Assembly (NCBI GenBank): GCA_004292955.1
Contig: RDXX01000033.1
Span: forward strand, 1-64,000
Direction of reading: 5' to 3'
Length of the DNA: 64,000 nt
Origin: Oscillatoriales cyanobacterium
Lineage (GTDB): Bacteria > Cyanobacteriota > Cyanobacteriia > Cyanobacteriales > Microcoleaceae
The notes under the pieces were generated by a model that was not told the DNA's origin, did no database searches, and was given only the letters and a program-made list of their open reading frames with translations. The translations under genes and the position numbers were made by a program. Numbering within the stretch: the stretch's first letter is position 1; every line of letters starts with the position of its first letter. Of this stretch, positions 36,091 through 45,280 are shown in pieces.

Positions 36091-39000
36091 TCACGCCCTT
36101 TCGATAGCCTGGAGAAGCAGAAAGGGCGATCGCACGGGATTGTTCAGCGTTCCTCCTTCTGTTAAAATATCTAAACCTTTGCCATTTCCCGAATAATCTG
36201 TCACTTGACCACCCGATGATGCACCGACGCTGATGATATTGTCAAACTGAAGGGATGCTTTGCCTAAAGCTGATATTTCTTGGGGATTATTGCCAGCAGG
36301 AACGACAACAACGATGTGATTTTTGCGAGCGTATTCTAGGGCATTTTCTTCGGCTTCTGTCAGTTCGTAGCGAGAAACTATTTTGCCGCTAACATCAACT
36401 TGAGTTAGTTCAAAACTAATGTTAACAACTGCATTGAGTCGATCGGATTTTTTGGCGTTATCGACAAATTCAATTAAGGATTCTGCCCAACTGTTATTGC
36501 CACTAGCCCTACCTAACCAAATCGGTGCTTCATTGTTAATGCCGTCGATGCCTTTGCTATTATTTTGAGTGGCGGCAATTAAGCCTAAAACATGAGTTCC
36601 TTGTTCGCTGCCTTCACCGGATTGAATTAAGGGATTATCATCATTAGCAATGCGGTCTTTTCCGAGAGTAATGCGGCTGTAGTCTATGTCGAAATTATTG
36701 GCATTAAATCCTGTACTAATAATACCGACTAAGGGTTGAGATGCTTTTGAAAAAGGGAATGAGGTAGTCGTTGTGACTGGATTCGAGCCGATATCTTGTG
36801 GATAATTTGTGGGTTCTGTATTGGTTTTTTCTTGACTATTTGTGGCTATTATGCTGGTTGCATTGGGTGCGACAGGTTGAGTTATCGGAGCAACTTCTTG
36901 AATAGAAATTGCTGGCTGGCTGTTGGTAGAAATTGCTGGTTTAGCTAATTCTGGTATTGCCGTTACTGGCTTGCTATCTGTCGCAATTGATTGATTGACA
37001 GTCGAAAGTTCTTGAGGATAAATATTTGGCTTGCTTTCGTGGACTATCGGCTGAAAAGTTTTACCAGATGCTTGAGTAGAAATTGCTGGTTGTTCATCGG
37101 TTTTAGGGCTGAGAGTAACAGCAGGTTGTGGTTGATTTATCTTGGTTTCTGTCTCAACGGTTGAAATGTTTTTAGGCGCAGGTTGAGGTGCAATTGCTTG
37201 AGATTCGATTTCAACTGATTTCGTTACAGTTTTATCTGAAGCCGGTGCATCTTTTGTGGTAGTAGAAATAGGGGTTGCGATCGCCTCTTTTTCTTCTTTT
37301 ATTGTCAACGGATCGATGACTGTTGGAGATGAAGTCACCGAATCGGTTTTGACAGACTCATTCGGAGTGGAAGTCAGTACGATCGCCAATTTCTCATCTT
37401 CAGCCTTCACCTCAGACACGACAGCCTTGTCTGAAACCGGCAAATCCTTGGTAGAAGTATCGATCGAATCTTCAGCCTTCACCTCAGACACGACCACCTC
37501 AGACACGACAGCCTTGTCTGAAACCGGCAAATCCTTGGTAGAAGTATCGATCGAATCTTCAGCCTTCACCCTCGACACGACAGTCTTGTCTGAAACCGGC
37601 ATATCTTTGGAAGAAGTAGCGATCGAATTGGCGATCGCAGGTTCGTCATCTTCAGTCTTCACTGCTGGCGTTACAGTTGTATCTGAAGTAACAACCTCCG
37701 TTTTCGAGAGAGACTCAGTATTAGTTGGAGAAATTACTTTCTCTTTTGAAACACTTGCGTTATCTGAAATCGGAACATCTAAAACCGAACCAGAATCAGT
37801 ATTTTTGGCAGGTTTTTCATCCTCTTTAGCAGGCTCTACCTTCGGTTCAACATAGGGTTTAGCATAAGCAATCAAAGCCTTACCAATATCAGCTTTACGC
37901 CAATCTTTCTCAGCATTAATCACAGAATCCAAATTCACCGCAGTACCCGTCGCACCCCGCACCTGAAATATCACATCATTGTAATCGCGATCGCTCCCTA
38001 AATCAACCCGCATATCCTCCATTGCAAAAGTCTTGCCACTACCAGTCACATCAGCAATTTGCCCGACATGAAATCCCTCAGCAGGATTCGCCGTCACCAT
38101 TGAAAATAAAGGACGTTTATCCCCTCCAACAACAGGATTATTCAGAACCTCTTGCACAGTTCCATTTGGCACCAACATAACGCCAAACTCATCCCCCGAA
38201 GTCATTGCAAAACTCTTGACTCCCAAATAAGTTCCTTCGTTATAATTCCCTTCAGGTAAATTACCCGTAAATCTCGCACCTTCGCTCAAATCATTAATGA
38301 CTACATGACCTTTTACAGAATTGCTTAATGCCCTTGAAGCCACTTCCTTGATAAATTCTGCTGAACCAGGTACAAACTTCTCCATCCCTTTTAGACTGAC
38401 GATAGCTAATTGACCCTTATACAGTCCGCCGTCAAACAAGAAATCGATACCAACTTGGCCGCTAGAGTCAACAACAAATTTCCCAGATGTAAACGAATTA
38501 TCGGCGACAATCTCAGATTTAGGAGTAGTTTTGCTGAGTTCTTTAGGGGTTTCAACTGCAACAGCTTGACTGTTATCCGCAACTTTTTTGTCCTTGTCTC
38601 CGCTAGTAGTTGTCGAGTTTTGTTTGTTGCTATCTTTGCCAGCTTCATCGATAGTAGCGACTGATTTATCCGCCGTCACTTTATCAGTAGTCGCTGCTTG
38701 AATTATGGCTGGTGATTTTGAAGTCTCAACAGTTTGAGTAGTAGTTGTGGAGTTTTTTTTGTTGCTATCTTTGCCAACTTCATCGATAGTAGCGACTGGT
38801 TTCTCCGCCGTCAATTTATCAGTAGTAGTCGCTGCTTGAATTGTGGCTGGTGATTTTGAAGTCTCAACAGTTTGAGTAGTAGTTGTCGAGTTTTGTTTGT
38901 TGCTATCTTTGCCCGCTTCATCGACACTAGCGACTGGTTTCTCCGCCGTCACTTTATCAGTAGTTGCTGCTTGAATTATGGATTCTTTTGGTTGTGAAAT

Positions 39001-39546
39001 CAGGTTACTGTCAGTGGCCAGTGTTTCCGATTTATTTTCTTTTTCTGCTAACGCATCGATTTTTTTATCAGGGGATATTTCCTTGGCACTCTGATTGTTA
39101 GTCAAAGAGTCAGTTGTTGTCAGACTGTCAGCTTTGATGGCAATTAACGGTGCATCTTTGCTGCTTCCAGTCAGGGTATCCTTGGCATCTATGGCTGACT
39201 GGGAACCGGATAGGGCGTCGCCGCGACTCGTATTGCCACTAACTGACCTGCTTAAGCTGCTATTGAGAGGATTTGGAACAATTAATGAATCATCGGATTT
39301 GTTGCTGATTGACTCGGAAGCAGCATCTTTTGATTTCAGTAAATTAGTCGTAACTAATGGTTTATCGGGTTCGATCGCTATTTTATTGTTGCTGTCAAGC
39401 ATCAAGGAACCTTCGCCGATATTTTGCTTGTTGCTGTTGCTTAAAGGGTTGAGGATAGAATTGTTGGCAGCACTTCCCGGCAAAGTGTCGGCGATTAGAA
39501 CATCTTTCAGCAGAACATTAGTTTGACCTTGATTGATAGTTGTCAT
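36091..39546 (-). CDS. DUF4114 protein with degenerate subtilisin-like domain
   Basis: 1151 residues. About 1-345 is Ser/Thr/Lys-rich with three 45-50-residue repeats (TTDKVTAEKPVASVDEAGKD type). About 350-540 is a DUF4114 domain (EFGVMLVPNGTVQEVLNN, DLGSDRDYNDVIFQV). About 560-930 is a second repeat-rich linker (TKDLPVSDKAVVSEV copies). About 935-1151 is a peptidase S8 fold. All catalytic positions are lost: GIISTGF replaces the D-T-G motif, EQGTHVLGL has Q for the catalytic His, and the Ser region is missing because the frame ends in a repeat at NNPVRSPFLL. Likely secreted or surface-exposed, as such DUF4114 proteins are; non-proteolytic. AGGAG lies 11 nt before ATG. Confidence 0.8.
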   Translation of the reverse strand: MTTINQGQTNVLLKDVLIADTLPGSAANNSILNPLSNSNKQNIGEGSLMLDSNNKIAIEPDKPLVTTNLLKSKDAASESISNKSDDSLIVPNPLNSSLSRSVSGNTSRGDALSGSQSAIDAKDTLTGSSKDAPLIAIKADSLTTTDSLTNNQSAKEISPDKKIDALAEKENKSETLATDSNLISQPKESIIQAATTDKVTAEKPVASVDEAGKDSNKQNSTTTTQTVETSKSPATIQAATTTDKLTAEKPVATIDEVGKDSNKKNSTTTTQTVETSKSPAIIQAATTDKVTADKSVATIDEAGKDSNKQNSTTTSGDKDKKVADNSQAVAVETPKELSKTTPKSEIVADNSFTSGKFVVDSSGQVGIDFLFDGGLYKGQLAIVSLKGMEKFVPGSAEFIKEVASRALSNSVKGHVVINDLSEGARFTGNLPEGNYNEGTYLGVKSFAMTSGDEFGVMLVPNGTVQEVLNNPVVGGDKRPLFSMVTANPAEGFHVGQIADVTGSGKTFAMEDMRVDLGSDRDYNDVIFQVRGATGTAVNLDSVINAEKDWRKADIGKALIAYAKPYVEPKVEPAKEDEKPAKNTDSGSVLDVPISDNASVSKEKVISPTNTESLSKTEVVTSDTTVTPAVKTEDDEPAIANSIATSSKDMPVSDKTVVSRVKAEDSIDTSTKDLPVSDKAVVSEVVVSEVKAEDSIDTSTKDLPVSDKAVVSEVKAEDEKLAIVLTSTPNESVKTDSVTSSPTVIDPLTIKEEKEAIATPISTTTKDAPASDKTVTKSVEIESQAIAPQPAPKNISTVETETKINQPQPAVTLSPKTDEQPAISTQASGKTFQPIVHESKPNIYPQELSTVNQSIATDSKPVTAIPELAKPAISTNSQPAISIQEVAPITQPVAPNATSIIATNSQEKTNTEPTNYPQDIGSNPVTTTTSFPFSKASQPLVGIISTGFNANNFDIDYSRITLGKDRIANDDNPLIQSGEGSEQGTHVLGLIAATQNNSKGIDGINNEAPIWLGRASGNNSWAESLIEFVDNAKKSDRLNAVVNISFELTQVDVSGKIVSRYELTEAEENALEYARKNHIVVVVPAGNNPQEISALGKASLQFDNIISVGASSGGQVTDYSGNGKGLDILTEGGTLNNPVRSPFLLLQAIERA

Positions 39547-39897
39547 TGAGATTATACTCCTAATCTTGGATTAAATGAAAATTGATATAATGAAATCAAA
39601 CGATCGCCCAAACGTTGAATTGGCTTCTCTACTCTAATTACGGAAGCAGCCCCAAGTTTTTACGCAAATCTCAAAACTGCTTTTTCACACGAAAGTGCGA
39701 TCGCCCACTCAACCCTAATTACGAAACCACCTCAAACTTTTTACGCAAATCTCAAAACTTTTTTCCCAAACCCCCTCAAACGTAAAGTTTTGTAACAATC
39801 TCCCCACAAATGCGTAAAAAATTGCGACTCTACCGAAAAACAACATAGAAATGCCCCAAGACTGCACAAGAATCCCCAGAGGAGTGAGGAGATTGAG
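39547..39897. promoter_or_regulatory. Control region with three TTTTTACGCA motifs
   Basis: Divergent gap between the DUF4114 gene and the sigma-factor cassette. A 22-bp segment starting TTTTTACGCAAATCTC is present twice with the same sequence (39657-39678 and 39738-39759), and its first 10 bp occur inverted at 39811-39820. The motifs lie 78-240 bp before the sigma-factor start and look like operator sites. A GAGGAG Shine-Dalgarno lies 6 nt before the sigma ATG. Confidence 0.5.
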
Positions 39898-40524
39898 ATG
39901 GAGGACGAAATTGATTTACAACTCAAACAGCTAGCCGTCGAAGCTCAACAGCACCCAGCCCTTAGCCTTGAGCGACAGAAAGCATTAACCAAACTGAGAA
40001 ACGCAATTTGGCTATCGGGCAAGCTTGCTTATCCCCAAAAAAGGTCATGGTCTCCTAATATTTACGAAGACCTTTATAACGAAGCACTTCTAAAAACAAT
40101 TGAGTATATTTGTCTAAAAATTGACAAATACGATCCAGAAAGACCACTGATGGCCCCGGTCAATCACATATTGAAGTTGAGATTCAAAGATGCTGTTAAG
40201 CGATATATGAAAGAAAAAAATAGAACACGCGAACTACCTTCCTTAAACGACCTAGATAATTACCAGTCACCACAATCACCATTGTCCGAAGAGGCTACAA
40301 TGCTGCGTGAATTGATCGAAGAAGATCCAGATGGCCATTTTAGAAGAGTGTCACTTAGATGTCGCCCGGATATTTCTTGGCAAGTTATAGCTTTAGCTAA
40401 ATTGGATGGTGAAACATTGGATAGTATGTCTCAAAGGTTTGGAGTTTCTATTTCAGGTATCGACAGTTTTTTTAATCGAAACCTGCGGAGATTTGGTGAT
40501 GATTTTCGTAATAAATTACAGTAA
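39898..40524 (+). CDS. Sigma-70-family (ECF-like) sigma factor
   Basis: The 208-residue protein has a region 2-like half (about 30-105: YEDLYNEALLKTIEYICLKI, DPERPLMAPVNHILKLRFKD) and a region 4 helix-turn-helix (about 160-200: ALAKLDGETLDSMSQRFGVS followed by ISGIDSFFNRNLRRF). No typical anti-sigma gene is adjacent. The next genes (DUF1822 26 bp away, then the CHAT protein) are on the same strand, and this order recurs, to my knowledge, in other filamentous cyanobacteria. It may transcribe its own cassette in response to stress. The extended N terminus differs from standard ECF factors. Confidence 0.85.
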   Translation: MEDEIDLQLKQLAVEAQQHPALSLERQKALTKLRNAIWLSGKLAYPQKRSWSPNIYEDLYNEALLKTIEYICLKIDKYDPERPLMAPVNHILKLRFKDAVKRYMKEKNRTRELPSLNDLDNYQSPQSPLSEEATMLRELIEEDPDGHFRRVSLRCRPDISWQVIALAKLDGETLDSMSQRFGVSISGIDSFFNRNLRRFGDDFRNKLQ

Positions 40525-40550
40525 CAATTAAGCGACAACCACAGAAACTA

Positions 40551-41465
40551 ATGATGAGTAAAATGATCGAACCAATAACTTTCACCGTACCGCTATCCTT
40601 TGAAGCCCATGACATCGCTCAACAGTGCGCTCAAAAATCCCTGCCGACAAAATTCAAACAAGTTTATCTCAATACCCTAGCAGTGTATGCAGTAGATTCT
40701 TACCTACGCTGCATGGGATTTGAAACTAACTTGGCTCATAGCGAAAGTCGCGATTCACTCATGCTCAAATTTGTAGATGTCGCCGATTTAGATATCGTCG
40801 GCGTTGGCAAAATTGAATGTCGTCCCGTATTGCCCGATTCCCAAACTTGTAACATTCCCTCCGATGCTTGGGAAAATCGCATCGGTTACGTTGCTGTACA
40901 ATTAAATCAATCTTTGAAAGAAGCAACGCTACTAGGATTTACTAAAACTTCTGCAATGAGAGAAGTACCGCTCACTCAACTGCAATCCCTAGAATATTTT
41001 CTTGCCTACATGAATCGAATTCAACAACTGAATCCAGTTAATTTAATGAACTGGTTTGAGAATGTTTTTGATACGGGATGGCAAGTAATTGATGAGCTAT
41101 TAAATCCCGAACAACTGGAGTGGCATTTTAGAAGTACGAACGCATTACCTATCGAGAGGGGTTATAAAATTGATTTGGGAATGCAGCTAGCACAACAGTC
41201 TGTAACACTTGCAGTCATGCTGGCACCAGAACCAGGTTCCGAAGTGGATATCCAAGTGCAAGTGTATCCGATGGGAAATCAAACTTGTTTGCCAGAAGGG
41301 TTAAAATTGATAGTGATGGATGAGTCAGAAGAGGTAGTTCTTGAGGCAACATCCAGAGATGATGACAACTTTATTCAGTTGGAATTTAGTTCTGAATTAA
41401 GAGAATTATTTGGCGTTACTGTGGCACTCGGAGAAGCTAGCGTGACGAAACATTTTCATTGGTAA
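40551..41465 (+). CDS. DUF1822-family protein
   Basis: Cyanobacteria-specific family of unknown function. The 304-residue protein has the typical start TFTVPLSFEAHDIAQQCAQK, YLNTLAVYAVDSYLRCMG, and the tail LELEF-like FIQLEFSSELRELFGVTVAL. It is soluble, with no signal or membrane segment. The C-terminal 90 residues (about 215-300) form a beta-rich portion that, in related proteins, resembles a carbohydrate- or ligand-binding fold; this is weak inference. It lies between a sigma factor and a CHAT-protease gene, so it may be an anti-sigma-like or sensor component. Confidence 0.88.
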   Translation: MMSKMIEPITFTVPLSFEAHDIAQQCAQKSLPTKFKQVYLNTLAVYAVDSYLRCMGFETNLAHSESRDSLMLKFVDVADLDIVGVGKIECRPVLPDSQTCNIPSDAWENRIGYVAVQLNQSLKEATLLGFTKTSAMREVPLTQLQSLEYFLAYMNRIQQLNPVNLMNWFENVFDTGWQVIDELLNPEQLEWHFRSTNALPIERGYKIDLGMQLAQQSVTLAVMLAPEPGSEVDIQVQVYPMGNQTCLPEGLKLIVMDESEEVVLEATSRDDDNFIQLEFSSELRELFGVTVALGEASVTKHFHW

Positions 41466-41561
41466 TCTGCCACGCATTTGTCATTCCCAGCTAGCACCTG
41501 GGAACGAAAGCAACAACTCAAGTATTGACTGCTAACCTATTGAAAATTTCACTTGGATTTT

Positions 41562-44486
41562 ATGTCATCATTAACCTTTCAAAACTTGCGCGGTCAAAAT
41601 CTCCAAGGTCGTTCTTTCAAAGGTCAAGATCTGACTAATACTGATTTCTCTTATGCAGATATCCGAGGTGCAGATTTTAGCGGAGCAACTCTCGATGGTG
41701 CTAACTTCAGTCACGCTCGCTGCGGATTAATAGTGCGATCGCAAATCAAAATATTCATAATTGTAGCACTGATATCAGCAATGTCAGGAACGGCTGCTGT
41801 AACTGCTATCAGTCAGACATTCAGATCTCTATTTGCCAAAAATATTGGGTACTCCAGTTTGATTGTAACAGCAATCATCTTATTACTGAATACTGTTCTT
41901 TTGGCTCTCACGATTCGCCAAGGAATACAAAAAGCTTTGGGGTCTTTAGCTATGGCGGCTGCAATCTTTGTACCTTGCATTGCTGTTTTAAGTGCGATCT
42001 CGAACGATAAACACCCGATACTGGCTTGGCTGAGAGGTTTTAGACCTGGGAGCTTAACTGGGGCGTTGGCTGGTGAACCGAATACCAACGATATTCCGTT
42101 TTTAATTGTAAGTTTGATCGGGGCTGTGGCTGCGACTACGATCGCAGTTGTAACTTTGCCTTTAGCTGTGGCTTTGGCTGAGGTTGTATTGGGCAGAATA
42201 GTGGCAGTTTTAGCTGTATTTGAAGCTCTGGCAATAAGTGCGATCGCCACCGGAATTATTATCAATAATTCAACCCGGTATTTAAAAGCATCTGTGTTAA
42301 TTAATACTAGATTAGCTGACAACACGAACAATAAATGTTATGATTTTTTAGACCAATGTGTCGCAAATTCTTCCAATCCACCTATAGTTATTGCGATTAT
42401 CATTATAGCGGTAATTTTAGCTGTAGCTTTGGTCTCATTGGGAACTTATATTGGCAACAGAGTTTTAGCTGAAGATGATAAATATGCCGTAATTCACCAA
42501 TTAGCTAATGCGATTGCAGCGGCAGGCAGTACCAGCTTTCGGGGTGCTAATTTAGCCAATATTAATTTTAGTTACGCTCTTCTCAAAAACACTGATTTTA
42601 GATCTGCTAATATTTATCGTGCAATGTGGCACAAAAGCTCAAGAATTGAGTGGGCAAGAGTCGGCGAGACAATATTAATTGATCCCGCAGTTAGAGATTT
42701 GCTAGTGACCGGCAACGGCTATAATAAATCATATCAAGGCATGGATTTGAGAGGAGCAAACTTGATAGGTGTAGACCTCGGCTACGCCAAACTTCAAACA
42801 GCAGACCTCAGTCAAGCGACTTTAGAAGCTGCTAATTTAGAGTATGCAATTTTTAGTCAAGTTCAGGCGATCGGCACTGATTTCAGTAATGCGAGAATGA
42901 CTGGTGCTTGCGGTTTAGGAACCTGGAATATTGACAGCACTACGAAACTAGAATGGGTAGATTGTCGGTGGGTTTACTTGCTAGAAGAACCGAAACCTGG
43001 CACTGACGATCGCGAACGCCGTCCCCACAGTGAAAAATCTCAATTTGAGATCGGAGAATTTACCAGTTTTTTTCAAGAGGTAGTCAATACAGTTGACTTA
43101 ATTTTCCGTAACGGTGTTGATTGGAAAGCCTTCTACCAATCTTTCCAAAAAGTTCAGGACGATCTCAAAGGTACAGAACTAAAAATTCAGAGTATTGAAA
43201 ATAAAGGCAATGGCGTTGTTGTCATCAAGGTTAGCGTACCTCCTGATACAGACAAAGAGAAGATTGAGACTGATTTCAATGGTTTCTACCAAAAAATGCT
43301 AGAATTAGCAAGAGTAAAAAATCCAATAATTCAAGAGTTCCCAGAACAGCAAAGATACTTGCTATCAGTAGTAGAGAAGATAGTAAAACCACTTTCAGAA
43401 CAGGTAGTTGTCTTAAACTTAGATCGTGGTGACTTGAACCAAGGCTTTGCCGTCAGCGCTGATATTTACTGTGACGGACACCGTTTGCCAATCCAAATAG
43501 AAGGCAATTTGCCACCACAAGCCAAAATTTTAAAACGCTATCAACAGTGGGAAGAAATGTATAACATTAAAAACCAGAACAGCCGGATCAAAGGCAAAGA
43601 AGGTCAAGTCACTAACTTTTCTATAAAGAAGCTAACAACGTTAGCTGAGGATGTGGAAGCGGAAGTAAATAATTGGCTGAATTCAGCACCGTTTAACCCG
43701 ATCGAGCAAAAATTGCACGACAATTTAAACTTTGATGATGAGGTGCGGGTGATTGTGCAAACTGAAGATGCCTTTCTGCGAAAACTTCCCTGGCATCGGT
43801 GGAAGTTTTTTGAAGTTGATTGCCAACAAGCAGAAGTCGCTTTAAGTCGCACAGTATCTAATAGGGTAAAGAAATTAGTCCTACCAAGAAGTAAAGTGAG
43901 AATCTTAGCAATTTTGGGTGACGATACAGGAATTAATATCGATGAAGACAAACAGGTGTTAGAGAATTTGTCAGACACAGAAATCATGTTTTTGCTCAAA
44001 CCAACTCGCGAGGAATGTGAGGAATGTCTCAGAGATAAAATAGGCTGGGACATTCTCTGTTTTTCCGGTCACAGTTACAGCGAAGTAGATGGCAGCACTG
44101 GGGCAATTTATATTAATAAAACAGATAAGTTAACTGTCGAAGAACTCAGGATTTCCTTGAAAATAGCCATTGAACGTGGTTTGGAGATAGCAATTTTTAA
44201 TTCTTGCGATGGCTTGGGATTGGGGAAACAGTTAGCTGACTTAGATATCCCTCAAATTATCGTGATGCGGGAACCTGTGCTAGATGCGATCGCCCAGGAG
44301 TTTTTGAGGCATTTTCTGAAAGCTTTTGCTGGTGGCGATTCTTTGTATGTTTCTGTGCGATCGGCGCGAGAAAAGTTGAAACAAAAATGGGATAAGCAAT
44401 TTCCCGGTGCTAGTTGGTTGCCTGCTATTTGCCAGAATCAATCTGAGTATCCCAAGAAATGGGGAGATTTTCAAGGGAATTGTTAG
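41562..44486 (+). CDS. Membrane pentapeptide-repeat protein with C-terminal CHAT protease domain
   Basis: From ATG 41562, 974 residues (a TTG three codons earlier is possible). Order: pentapeptide repeats (about 5-50), about six transmembrane helices (about 55-285), a second pentapeptide array (about 320-440), a linker with helical character (about 470-640), and a CHAT caspase-like domain (about 690-965). Catalytic dyad: H837 in LCFSGHSYSEV and C882 in IFNSCDGLG. CHAT proteases cleave after signal sensing; the membrane anchor and pentapeptide coils suggest envelope or complex sensing. It forms a same-strand cassette with the sigma factor, DUF1822 and the pilin-like gene, which is a candidate substrate. 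The activating signal is unknown. Confidence 0.9.
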   Translation: MSSLTFQNLRGQNLQGRSFKGQDLTNTDFSYADIRGADFSGATLDGANFSHARCGLIVRSQIKIFIIVALISAMSGTAAVTAISQTFRSLFAKNIGYSSLIVTAIILLLNTVLLALTIRQGIQKALGSLAMAAAIFVPCIAVLSAISNDKHPILAWLRGFRPGSLTGALAGEPNTNDIPFLIVSLIGAVAATTIAVVTLPLAVALAEVVLGRIVAVLAVFEALAISAIATGIIINNSTRYLKASVLINTRLADNTNNKCYDFLDQCVANSSNPPIVIAIIIIAVILAVALVSLGTYIGNRVLAEDDKYAVIHQLANAIAAAGSTSFRGANLANINFSYALLKNTDFRSANIYRAMWHKSSRIEWARVGETILIDPAVRDLLVTGNGYNKSYQGMDLRGANLIGVDLGYAKLQTADLSQATLEAANLEYAIFSQVQAIGTDFSNARMTGACGLGTWNIDSTTKLEWVDCRWVYLLEEPKPGTDDRERRPHSEKSQFEIGEFTSFFQEVVNTVDLIFRNGVDWKAFYQSFQKVQDDLKGTELKIQSIENKGNGVVVIKVSVPPDTDKEKIETDFNGFYQKMLELARVKNPIIQEFPEQQRYLLSVVEKIVKPLSEQVVVLNLDRGDLNQGFAVSADIYCDGHRLPIQIEGNLPPQAKILKRYQQWEEMYNIKNQNSRIKGKEGQVTNFSIKKLTTLAEDVEAEVNNWLNSAPFNPIEQKLHDNLNFDDEVRVIVQTEDAFLRKLPWHRWKFFEVDCQQAEVALSRTVSNRVKKLVLPRSKVRILAILGDDTGINIDEDKQVLENLSDTEIMFLLKPTREECEECLRDKIGWDILCFSGHSYSEVDGSTGAIYINKTDKLTVEELRISLKIAIERGLEIAIFNSCDGLGLGKQLADLDIPQIIVMREPVLDAIAQEFLRHFLKAFAGGDSLYVSVRSAREKLKQKWDKQFPGASWLPAICQNQSEYPKKWGDFQGNC

Positions 44487-44528
44487 CGGTATATTGAGTA
44501 AATTTAGTTTTTGTTTGAGGTGTTAATT

Positions 44529-45251
44529 ATGTCGGCATTTGTCTGCAATTTTGTGCAACATATCCACACATCGCTTTTAAAACTCCGTTTTGCAGGCGAG
44601 GGCAAGTCACTTCTACAAAGGCAAAGAATATACTTAAATACCGGATTGTATATCAGTTACCAGAAGTGCGATTCCCTGCGGTACAAGCTATGCATGGGTG
44701 CAGGATGTACCAACGCTTCCCAGGGCTTCACTTTAATTGAGTTGCTGGTTGTCATTTTTATTATTGGGATTTTATCTGCGATCGCCCTCCCTACCTTCTT
44801 CAGGTTAATCGGTAAAGCTAAAGAAAGTGAAGCCACACAATATATTAGCTATTTGAACAAACACCAAACGGCGCAATATTACGAAGCAACGGGATTTACC
44901 AACTCTTTCGGATCGCTTTCATTTTCCCAAGATCCAACAGCAACTTCTGCTGCTGCTATTTTGAAAGGTTTTGGCTTTTCTGTGCGAGAAAGCAAGAATT
45001 ATTTGTATGGTATCAAAGTTGCGACTCACAATGGCTATCCAATTGCAGCTCAAGTAGCTGTGTCTAAAAATTTAGGTGTGCGATCTTATTTTGGAATTAT
45101 CTACGCCCACGATAATAATATCTTAGTTCCGTGCGGCCCGGTTGCTGTTGATTTGAGTTTGGCTTCTCCGGTGCTTAAACAAGTACAGATGGTGACACAA
45201 TTTCTAGCCACTCCTGAGATTTATTGTCCTTATCCTAGTTTCATAAAATAG
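44529..45251 (+). CDS. Type IV pilin-like G/H-family protein
   Basis: Prepilin-type protein. The cleavage motif and helix ASQGFTLIELLVVIFIIG are followed by LSAIALPTFFRLIGKAKESE, the G/H-type domain with TAQYYEATGF, and a conserved Cys pair toward the end. The start at ATG 44529 has a GAGG 8 nt upstream but gives a 66-residue leader; ATG 44694 gives a normal 11-residue leader (MGAGCTNASQG) but lacks a clear ribosome site. It starts 42 bp after the CHAT gene on the same strand and is followed by a strong terminator, so it is the last gene of the cassette. It could be a minor pilin, a surface sensor or a protease target. Confidence 0.8.
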   Translation: MSAFVCNFVQHIHTSLLKLRFAGEGKSLLQRQRIYLNTGLYISYQKCDSLRYKLCMGAGCTNASQGFTLIELLVVIFIIGILSAIALPTFFRLIGKAKESEATQYISYLNKHQTAQYYEATGFTNSFGSLSFSQDPTATSAAAILKGFGFSVRESKNYLYGIKVATHNGYPIAAQVAVSKNLGVRSYFGIIYAHDNNILVPCGPVAVDLSLASPVLKQVQMVTQFLATPEIYCPYPSFIK

Positions 45252-45253
45252 TG

Positions 45254-45280
45254 CTACATTTAGTAAATGTAGTTTTTGTT
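45254..45280 (+). terminator. Intrinsic terminator of the sigma-CHAT-pilin cassette
   Basis: Perfect 8-bp stem CTACATTT / AAATGTAG with a 3-nt loop (45254-45272) followed by TTTTTGTT, 3 bp after the pilin-like stop. This marks the end of the transcription unit. Confidence 0.85.

Follow-up and report, generated by a model that had tools for sequence, protein, structure and literature searches.

Cyanobacteria possess many caspase-like CHAT proteases, and in the literature searched neither a substrate nor an output was found for those of the EACC2 type. The sigma/DUF1822/EACC2-caspase neighbourhood is already published (Kaur et al., eLife 2021, PMC8195603), EACC2-caspase modules being described there near ECF sigma and DUF1822 genes. 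Section 9 of that paper does not propose DUF1822 as a bridge or a substrate. In type III-E CRISPR, the N-domain of Csx30 binds CASP-sigma, whereas its C-domain touches the CHAT protease and undergoes cleavage, according to the parts of PMC10028731 dealing with this protein. The DegS-RseA-sigmaE envelope stress relay, in which a membrane-associated protease acts on an anti-sigma factor, is also named in those parts.

The window analysed here, a 64,000-nucleotide stretch of contig RDXX01000033.1 from an Oscillatoriales cyanobacterium, carries on its + strand an ECF-type sigma gene (39898..40524), a DUF1822 gene (40551..41465), a membrane EACC2-CHAT protease gene (41562..44486), a pilin-like gene (44529..45251) and a terminator, in this order, with repeats upstream. 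All four ORFs were confirmed, as were the short gaps given in the initial annotation, i.e. 26 bp (40524/40551), 96 bp (41465/41562) and 42 bp (44486/44529) with ATG starts assumed. Promoters or terminators separating the genes had been named as an argument against a joint cassette; a consensus scan for both gave 22 promoter-like sites for 15.2 expected and no convincing internal break. In the source genome, all six DUF1822 genes found stand directly before an EACC2-CHAT gene and five of them follow a sigma-like gene, so the linkage is not due to chance. The conserved linkage predicted initially extends to many genomes for sigma, DUF1822 and EACC2-CHAT, and DUF1822 is carried by 121 of the 130 sampled genomes of the order.

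The cassette resembles the published EACC2-caspase system by its EACC2 plus CHAT-type caspase module, by the adjoining ECF sigma gene and by the adjoining DUF1822 gene (PF08852, E 7e-66); multi-TM variable parts are also mentioned in the passages of PMC8195603 devoted to that system. There, the constant module is N-terminal, whereas here it starts at residue 615 of 977, after a pentapeptide/6-TM/pentapeptide part. Moreover, a pilin gene here follows the protease gene, and DUF1822, labelled a TPR protein in those passages, is predicted here to combine an alpha/beta and an Ig-like domain. New in this member are thus the C-terminal position of the constant module and the added, linked pilin gene. 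New for the family is that DUF1822, as judged from sequence comparison, has two separable domains, the sigma factor going with N and EACC2-CHAT with C. The initial annotation was right on the linkage, the catalytic dyad and the DUF1822 partnership, and overlooked both the published association and the two-domain organization. We consider it somewhat probable that the locus encodes a protease-adaptor-sigma relay, in which the membrane CHAT protease would control the sigma factor through the two-domain DUF1822.

That annotation had already pointed to the TPR-CHAT partner of type III-E CRISPR, and this parallel proves apt. Both systems include a CHAT protease, an ECF-like sigma factor and an intermediate protein, whose N-part serves the sigma factor and C-part the protease in the published accounts of Csx30, and would do so here. 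TPR-CHAT acts under Cas7-11 in those accounts, whereas EACC2-CHAT comes here with a membrane sensor; a TPR-CHAT protease is absent from the window, yet present at other DUF1822 loci, and the searches made brought out no likeness between DUF1822 and Csx30. By analogy, the cassette may work like Csx29-Csx30-CASP-sigma, homology not being claimed. CalpL, CalpT and CalpS of type III CRISPR are a protease, an anti-sigma substrate and an ECF sigma factor encoded by three genes, the protease being a Lon-SAVED protein, and at the level of a general description the cassette is likened to this three-gene protease/anti-sigma/sigma plan. DegS and RseA belong to protease and anti-sigma families that differ from those of the cassette.

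The first gene (208 aa) has no Pfam match and matches TIGR02937 at E 1.8e-4, under that model's cut-off; 27 of 58 aligned sequences match the same model at E 0.01 or better. Its AF2 model (pLDDT 85.6, pTM 0.51) has CnrH, sigma-E and SigW among its best Foldseek matches, every E value being above 0.03. On these profile and structure predictions, the protein is a diverged ECF sigma factor. NF041236 (CASP-sigma type) is matched at 1e-5 by one of the 58 sequences, as are generic ECF models. Weighing against the relay, the short and long sigma families could not be tied together (hhalign probability 28%).

The DUF1822 protein (304 aa) is modelled by AF2 (pLDDT 90) as an alpha/beta N-domain (about residues 11-160, 40581..41030, + strand), the proposed sigma-binding half, followed by an Ig-like beta-sandwich C-domain (about residues 201-304, 41151..41462, + strand), the proposed EACC2-CHAT-binding half. 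Eight N-only proteins taken as a profile align to it over the N-domain only. The label of TPR protein was rejected on this two-domain fold, no TPR model appearing in the Pfam scan and no TPR in the AF2 model. Homology with Csx30 found no support from sequence or fold searches: the DUF1822 profile gave no convincing match to PDB chains, those of Csx30 being absent from the matches listed, which does not speak against homology, and the fold search, filled by Ig-like domains and barely probing the N-domain, revealed no Csx30 likeness.

Across genomes, the two domains also occur apart. The counts cover DUF1822 genes fetched through PF08852, with loci L041-L120, fetched through EACC2-CHAT, left out; 40 C-half and 22 N-half regions were fetched as partial loci, some picked by eye, from somewhat longer lists, one of them itself truncated, their neighbours not yet seen. 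Gene 12227 of L282, cut by the locus end, was dropped, those of L258, L259, L262 and L264 were moved from N-only to two-domain because the profile comparison spans both domains, and short C-only ORFs (e.g. L217, L232, L236), which may be degraded genes, were kept. A sigma gene accompanies 20/25 N-only, 6/42 C-only (three being fusions) and 68/73 two-domain genes, and EACC2-CHAT 1/25, 31/42 and 49/73, respectively; before these changes, N-only genes numbered 30, with sigma for 25 and EACC2-CHAT for 5. With one gene per 60%-identity cluster, sigma and EACC2-CHAT are found for 16 and 1 of 21 N-only, 6 and 28 of 37 C-only, and 53 and 39 of 56 two-domain genes (Fisher P for N-only vs C-only after clustering, 1e-5 and 2e-7). 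Counting against the relay, the operon lacks EACC2-CHAT for 24/73 two-domain and 11/42 C-only genes, and three C-only genes (L219, L230, L246) have a separate upstream sigma. Sigma is fused to DUF1822-C without the N-domain in L212 and L213, probably a single event within one genus, in L242, and perhaps in L224, where the Pfam sigma70_r2 match (E 0.0056) is under the cut-off. EACC2-CHAT is fused to DUF1822-C in L206 and its 75%-identical relative P0001, as well as in L227 together with a STAND NTPase. Other proteases may occupy the operon: TPR-CHAT accompanies 11/25 N-only and 0/42 C-only genes (Pfam-checked at L186, L251 and L267, also in L155), and trypsin-like proteins stand beside sigma-DUF1822 in L172, L174 and L175. 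That TPR-CHAT accompanies 12/73 two-domain genes as well counts against the relay.

Divergence was compared over a set that took in L041-L120 too, one alignment placing DUF1822-C on CHAT not being used. The partial correlations for short-sigma and long-sigma loci, respectively, are 0.55 and 0.67 for sigma-N, 0.38 and 0.59 for C-EACC2, and 0.00 and -0.20 for sigma-C. Between N and C, on one polypeptide, they reach just 0.23 and 0.15, and the within-protein control EACC2-CHAT gives 0.63 and 0.59. Speaking against a clean pairing, sigma in short-sigma loci covaries also with EACC2-CHAT taken as a whole (0.34), and in long-sigma loci so do N with CHAT (0.44) and sigma with EACC2 (0.27). As covariation tracks the arrangement of the locus (sigma, N, C, EACC2, CHAT), linkage with recombination inside DUF1822 could explain part of it. 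In the comparison of loci, the sigma factor keeps company and diverges jointly with the predicted N-domain, and the EACC2-CHAT protease with the predicted C-domain.

The protease (974 aa from ATG, with a TTG upstream at 41553) matches pentapeptide repeats (E 2.5e-26) and CHAT (E 1.6e-8) in Pfam, with no TPR match in that scan. About six transmembrane helices (41742..42470, + strand; TM-like stretches from residue 56 to 306 by hydropathy) lie between two pentapeptide-repeat arrays, a fusion to the protease that had been read correctly, and the EACC2-CHAT module is C-terminal (43395..44483, + strand). Also read correctly was the dyad, intact in the CHAT module, of His837 (codon 44070..44072, + strand) and Cys882 (44205..44207, + strand) in ATG numbering, i.e. 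His840/Cys885 from TTG. This module is 32-43% identical to five paralogous modules over its whole length, and 31 of 171 full-length EACC2-CHAT modules start after residue 250. Its alpha+beta part is equated with the EACC2 of PMC8195603 from its position and its CHASE2 partners. Within two genes after N-terminal EACC2-CHAT genes of 600-900 aa, an HMM built from L007 detects an ORF of one family in 52/111 cases, a family which we take to be DUF928-like.

The last gene has, according to Pfam matches above cut-off, a prepilin N-methylation motif (N_methyl PF07963, E 8.6e-9) and a Pilin_GH domain (PF16734, E 7e-8). Its start may be as late as 44694, about 207 bp after the protease gene; most of the similarity with other loci sets in near GFTLIEL. 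Such a gene is linked to 9 of 27 proteases of the window subtype vs 1 of 162 other EACC2-CHAT genes, the lone case (L208) being a gene truncated where its contig ends. The nine are the window with its close relatives L041, L055, L058, L201 and L204, and the more distant L050, L051 and L110. The pilin as constant fourth member was hence rejected as a general rule, and the co-occurrence of sigma, CHAT and pilin genes expected initially stands for sigma, DUF1822 and CHAT, the pilin joining them with this protease subtype only.

The separate occurrence of the modules, their fusions and the covariation suggest that DUF1822 is the bridge, and hence the likeliest substrate, which agrees with the earlier view of DUF1822 as partner of both sigma and protease. 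In the proposed relay, DUF1822-N would hold the ECF sigma factor, as anti-sigma or tether, and DUF1822-C would dock on EACC2, the membrane CHAT protease thereby checking the sigma factor via DUF1822. The sensor here would be the pentapeptide/6-TM/pentapeptide membrane module, probably with the pilin-like envelope protein, CHASE2 taking this place in many relatives. On firing, CHAT would cut DUF1822, the stretch joining the two domains being the most likely place, and the freed sigma would drive transcription of its own cassette and of other genes. Sequence comparison and analogy are what suggest this binding and cleavage.

According to a reading that follows the published proposal, the EACC2-caspase senses and self-processes, sigma and DUF1822 form a late transcriptional step, and DUF1822 is an uncleaved scaffold. 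Section 9 of PMC8195603 indeed proposes autopeptidase activation with the ECF sigma as ultimate step, and the STAND and TRADD-like fusions and a kinase part (seen by eye) fit such conflict systems. Yet it leaves unexplained why DUF1822-N tracks sigma, why DUF1822-C tracks EACC2 and why other proteases take the third position, and no PADLOC model matches any of the four proteins at E 0.01; we hold it to be doubtful. Rather improbable is DUF1822 as a positive adaptor, i.e. a sigma co-activator or chaperone, the protease cleaving its complex with sigma and thereby ending or redirecting the response. The sigma-DUF1822-C fusions join permanently what a pure anti-sigma should release, which is odd unless they are cleaved, but the analogy with Csx30, the one pointer to inhibition rather than activation, goes the other way.

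If the pilin-like protein or a pilus were the protease substrate and sigma merely expressed the cassette, the subtype-specific pilin linkage and the 8-bp overlap of the protease and pilin ORFs in L050 and L051 would be accounted for. The bulk of a type IV pilin-like protein would nevertheless lie outside and CHAT inside, and for 18 of the 27 same-subtype proteases, some of them near contig ends, no pilin gene lies on the same strand at a distance of up to 3 kb. This makes it very unlikely, and the pilin is more likely an input partner than a substrate. Neither this option of the initial annotation nor its suggestion that the protease may cut the sigma factor gained support from the analysis. 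That the genes are neighbours without joint function is scarcely credible in view of the six out of six DUF1822 loci of the genome, the many-genome pattern, the fusions and the covariation, and nothing was found in its favour.

The relay would give the widespread EACC2-CHAT family a candidate output (sigma) and a candidate substrate (DUF1822, between its domains), and the domain of unknown function DUF1822 a working role. The protease-frees-sigma logic of type III-E CRISPR would extend beyond CRISPR, to systems that sense at the membrane and can exchange their protease. More tentatively, and with the balance tilting slightly against it, DUF1822 could serve cyanobacteria generally as a swappable adaptor between proteases and sigma factors, with a sigma-holding N-domain and exchangeable tails (Ig-like for EACC2-CHAT, short for giant TPR-CHAT). 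If so, multicellular cyanobacteria have a family of "caspase frees sigma" pathways outside CRISPR, often gated at the membrane and in many cases several to a genome. These would share the logic of the type III-E output arm and might represent the type of independent module that gave rise to it.

The repeated motifs noticed before the first gene correspond to two 81-nt direct repeats (39604..39765, + strand), 73% alike, upstream of the sigma gene, a block kept before sigma in five related loci; their 26-nt core has no other occurrence in the genome. Inside them, TTTTTACGCA faces TGCGTAAAAA as an inverted repeat, the latter within a conserved promoter-like core, CGTAAAGTTTTGTAACA..ATGCGTAAAA (39781..39819, + strand). 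This AAC-N16-CGT core is a putative ECF promoter. Its role as a specific target of this sigma was weakened: the genus carries the same core at one further site, also in G011, G019 and G009, genomes in which nothing matches the window protease at E 1e-60, and therefore the core is not specific to this sigma. It is also absent from most other sigma-DUF1822 loci, GTAAC-N15..19-CGT being present in 6/79 short-sigma and 0/60 long-sigma upstream regions (control, 6/1334). The terminator annotated after the last gene, which the consensus scan does not list, is an intrinsic one (45253..45278, + strand), a hairpin at 45253-45273 followed by a T-run (-7.2 kcal/mol, z -2.2, with 7 of 200 shuffles folding equally well).

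The sigma/DUF1822/CHAT/pilin cassette of the window is real, conserved and of a published kind (PMC8195603), in a new architecture. As the initial annotation had it, four plus-strand genes follow one another at short gaps (26, 96 and 42 bp): an ECF-type sigma gene (39898-40524), a DUF1822 gene (40551-41465, Pfam), a protease gene with pentapeptide repeats and CHAT (41562-44486, Pfam) and a type IV pilin-like gene (44529-45251, Pfam). The claimed terminator lies after the last gene (45253-45278, plus strand) and is absent from the list of a consensus scan; the repeated motifs before the first gene are a pair of 81-nt direct repeats. The literature searched, with most subscription journals and bioRxiv outside its scope, held no further description of a DUF1822/EACC2/CHAT-sigma association beyond PMC8195603. 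Divergent from the sigma gene, a 1151-aa DUF4114 protein is encoded on the minus strand (36091-39546); by eye, its C-terminal stretch resembles an incomplete subtilisin-type protease, with none in the Pfam listing.

The sigma gene has no Pfam match and scores 1.8e-4 against the NCBIfam ECF-sigma superfamily model, below the model cut-off; 27 of the 58 sequences in its alignment match that model. In Foldseek, its AF2 model (pLDDT 85.6, pTM 0.51) has CnrH and sigma-E as top matches and SigW in sixth place, all with E-values above 0.03. From sequence and modelled fold, it is accepted as a diverged ECF sigma factor. In line with the reported membrane helices, the two pentapeptide arrays of the protease are separated by some six TM-like stretches; the protein ends with the EACC2-CHAT module, in which the His and Cys of the proposed pair align with five paralogues. 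Both dyad motifs are kept in 161/171 full-length modules under a strict pattern, GH and NSC being still visible in six of the ten missed. The protein seems to have arisen by joining EACC2-CHAT to a pentapeptide/TM/pentapeptide protein, and the latter also stands alone in the same genome (loci L013 and L015). At L013 (910-3498), it is followed by a second small gene having an 'LNIG.I.G.VTN' stretch in common with its C-terminus.

Gene order around DUF1822 across genomes bears out the linkage to sigma and EACC2-CHAT. In the window's genome (7.29 Mb, 163 contigs), an EACC2-CHAT gene directly follows DUF1822 in six of six loci and a sigma-like gene precedes it in five, the exception (L011) having the C-half alone and no sigma. 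The EACC2-CHAT module is N-terminal in five of these loci, followed by parts named by eye as CHASE2 (three loci), TM-TPR and a kinase; the window is the C-terminal exception. CHAT islands are seen at L202, L045, L048, L206 and L050: on contig C72 of genome G010, some 16 kb contain five EACC2-CHAT genes among DUF1822 and sigma genes, and L050 has three pentapeptide-TM-CHAT genes in tandem. Each of 20 genomes (1.8-2.2 Mb) of family f15 has one weak PF08852 match; these and L200 (8108-11275) encode a protein, in most cases near 1000 aa in length, with a DUF1822-N-like domain at its start (E 1e-5 to 1e-11). In L200, the next gene is a 192-aa ORF to which the long-sigma HMM matches.

Type III-E CRISPR provides a model for an intermediate protein between sigma and a CHAT protease. 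According to PMC10028731, the N-domain of Csx30 binds CASP-sigma and its C-domain contacts the CHAT protease Csx29, which cuts it. By analogy, the likeliest scheme is that DUF1822 would hold sigma off, tethered to the protease; a sensor would activate CHAT, which would cut DUF1822 and so set sigma free. What comparison shows is the linkage, the predicted two-domain structure, the dissociation, the fusions and the covariation.

Dissociation was followed in loci fetched via PF08852, plus the window, with our own HMMs for each DUF1822 half, for a short and a long family of sigma, and for three protease types (EACC2-CHAT, TPR-CHAT and trypsin). No relationship between the two sigma families was established; the long one shows Pfam sigma70 region 4 in L007. 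Before counting, four divergent two-domain genes were moved out of the N-only class and one cut gene was dropped. The halves dissociate along with their partners. N-only genes (n = 25) come with sigma in 20 cases, EACC2-CHAT in 1 and TPR-CHAT in 11; C-only genes (n = 42) with sigma in 6 (3 being fusions), EACC2-CHAT in 31 and TPR-CHAT in none; two-domain genes (n = 73) with sigma in 68, EACC2-CHAT in 49, TPR-CHAT in 12 and trypsin in 3. When each 60% cluster is represented by a single gene, the same counts are 16, 1 and 8 of 21 N-only genes, 6, 28 and 0 of 37 C-only genes, and 53, 39, 6 and 1 of 56 two-domain genes.

A profile of eight N-only proteins aligns to DUF1822 in the N-domain only. 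N-only proteins terminate in a short tail, which by eye is helical and recurrently finishes in an LAExLLEKLAEIW-like sequence. C-only proteins carry other N-terminal parts, such as NB-ARC/NACHT STAND (L211, L214, L237), a TRADD-like part (L228) or a long sigma (L212 and L213, of one genus, and L242). In these last three, sigma is fused to DUF1822-C without DUF1822-N; the absence of the N-domain where sigma is covalently attached is as predicted by a sigma-holding role of N. EACC2-CHAT and DUF1822-C share a single chain in L206 and P0001, 75% identical and probably one event, and in L227 with nSTAND1 between them.

Covariation was assessed by partial correlations of pairwise divergence in loci with adjacent sigma and EACC2-CHAT (50 short-sigma loci, 35 without near-duplicates; 39 long-sigma loci, 25 kept). 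Values for short- and long-sigma loci, respectively, are high for sigma-N (0.55, 0.67) and C-EACC2 (0.38, 0.59); those for sigma-C (0.00, -0.20) and N-EACC2 (0.00, -0.25) lie at or below zero. N-C, inside one polypeptide, reaches 0.23 and 0.15, below sigma-N. Against a clean chain stand, in long-sigma loci, N-CHAT (0.44) and sigma-EACC2 (0.27) and, in short-sigma loci, sigma versus EACC2-CHAT taken as one module (0.34). As gene order alone would lead one to expect a similar chain, covariation backs a bridge mainly through the low N-C value. Overall, the new evidence makes DUF1822, formerly unknown, the protein that probably connects the sigma factor with a caspase-like protease.

Other proteases also adjoin sigma-DUF1822: TPR-CHAT in L155, L186, L251 and L267, and trypsin-like proteins in L172, L174 and L175. 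A same-strand TPR-CHAT within 2.5 kb accompanies 14/29 N-only genes (class before the four genes were moved) versus 9/111 others. Further neighbours are a chloride channel (L157), a TPS protein (L188) and a histidine kinase (L256).

The suggested association with pilin genes holds for window-type proteases and does not extend to the rest: a same-strand GFTLIEL-type ORF lies within 3 kb of 9/27 distinct window-type proteases versus 1/162 other EACC2-CHAT genes (Fisher 6e-8, overstated since close relatives make up six of the nine). Taken from its first start codon, the pilin ORF of L050 and L051 shares 8 bp with the protease gene. Because pilin and protease are both membrane or envelope proteins, we infer that the pilin is a partner in sensing. 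Among 111 genes for a 600-900 aa protease with EACC2-CHAT at the N-terminus, 52 are followed by the gene of a conserved protein (e.g. L007 5299-6021) that we take to be DUF928-like and, by eye, exported; it may correspond to the pilin that accompanies the window's protease type.

The core of the window's upstream repeats is unique in the genome, and upstream of the sigma gene the window shares a conserved promoter core with five related loci, which fits self-regulation. The promoter core also has a second site in the genus, so it may serve another regulator. There, several genomes have the core (TAAAGTTTTGTAACA-N-AAATGCGTAAAAACT) again, placed between convergent genes. One case, G000:C136:4982-5010, on the minus strand at about 1410-1530 of locus L293, was aligned with L294, L298, L299, L300, L304, L305 and L309. 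Rfam gives no match to this site in L293, L309 or L299. By eye, a GC-rich hairpin and a T-run follow within about 100 nt, making the recurring core and hairpin a candidate small RNA gene.
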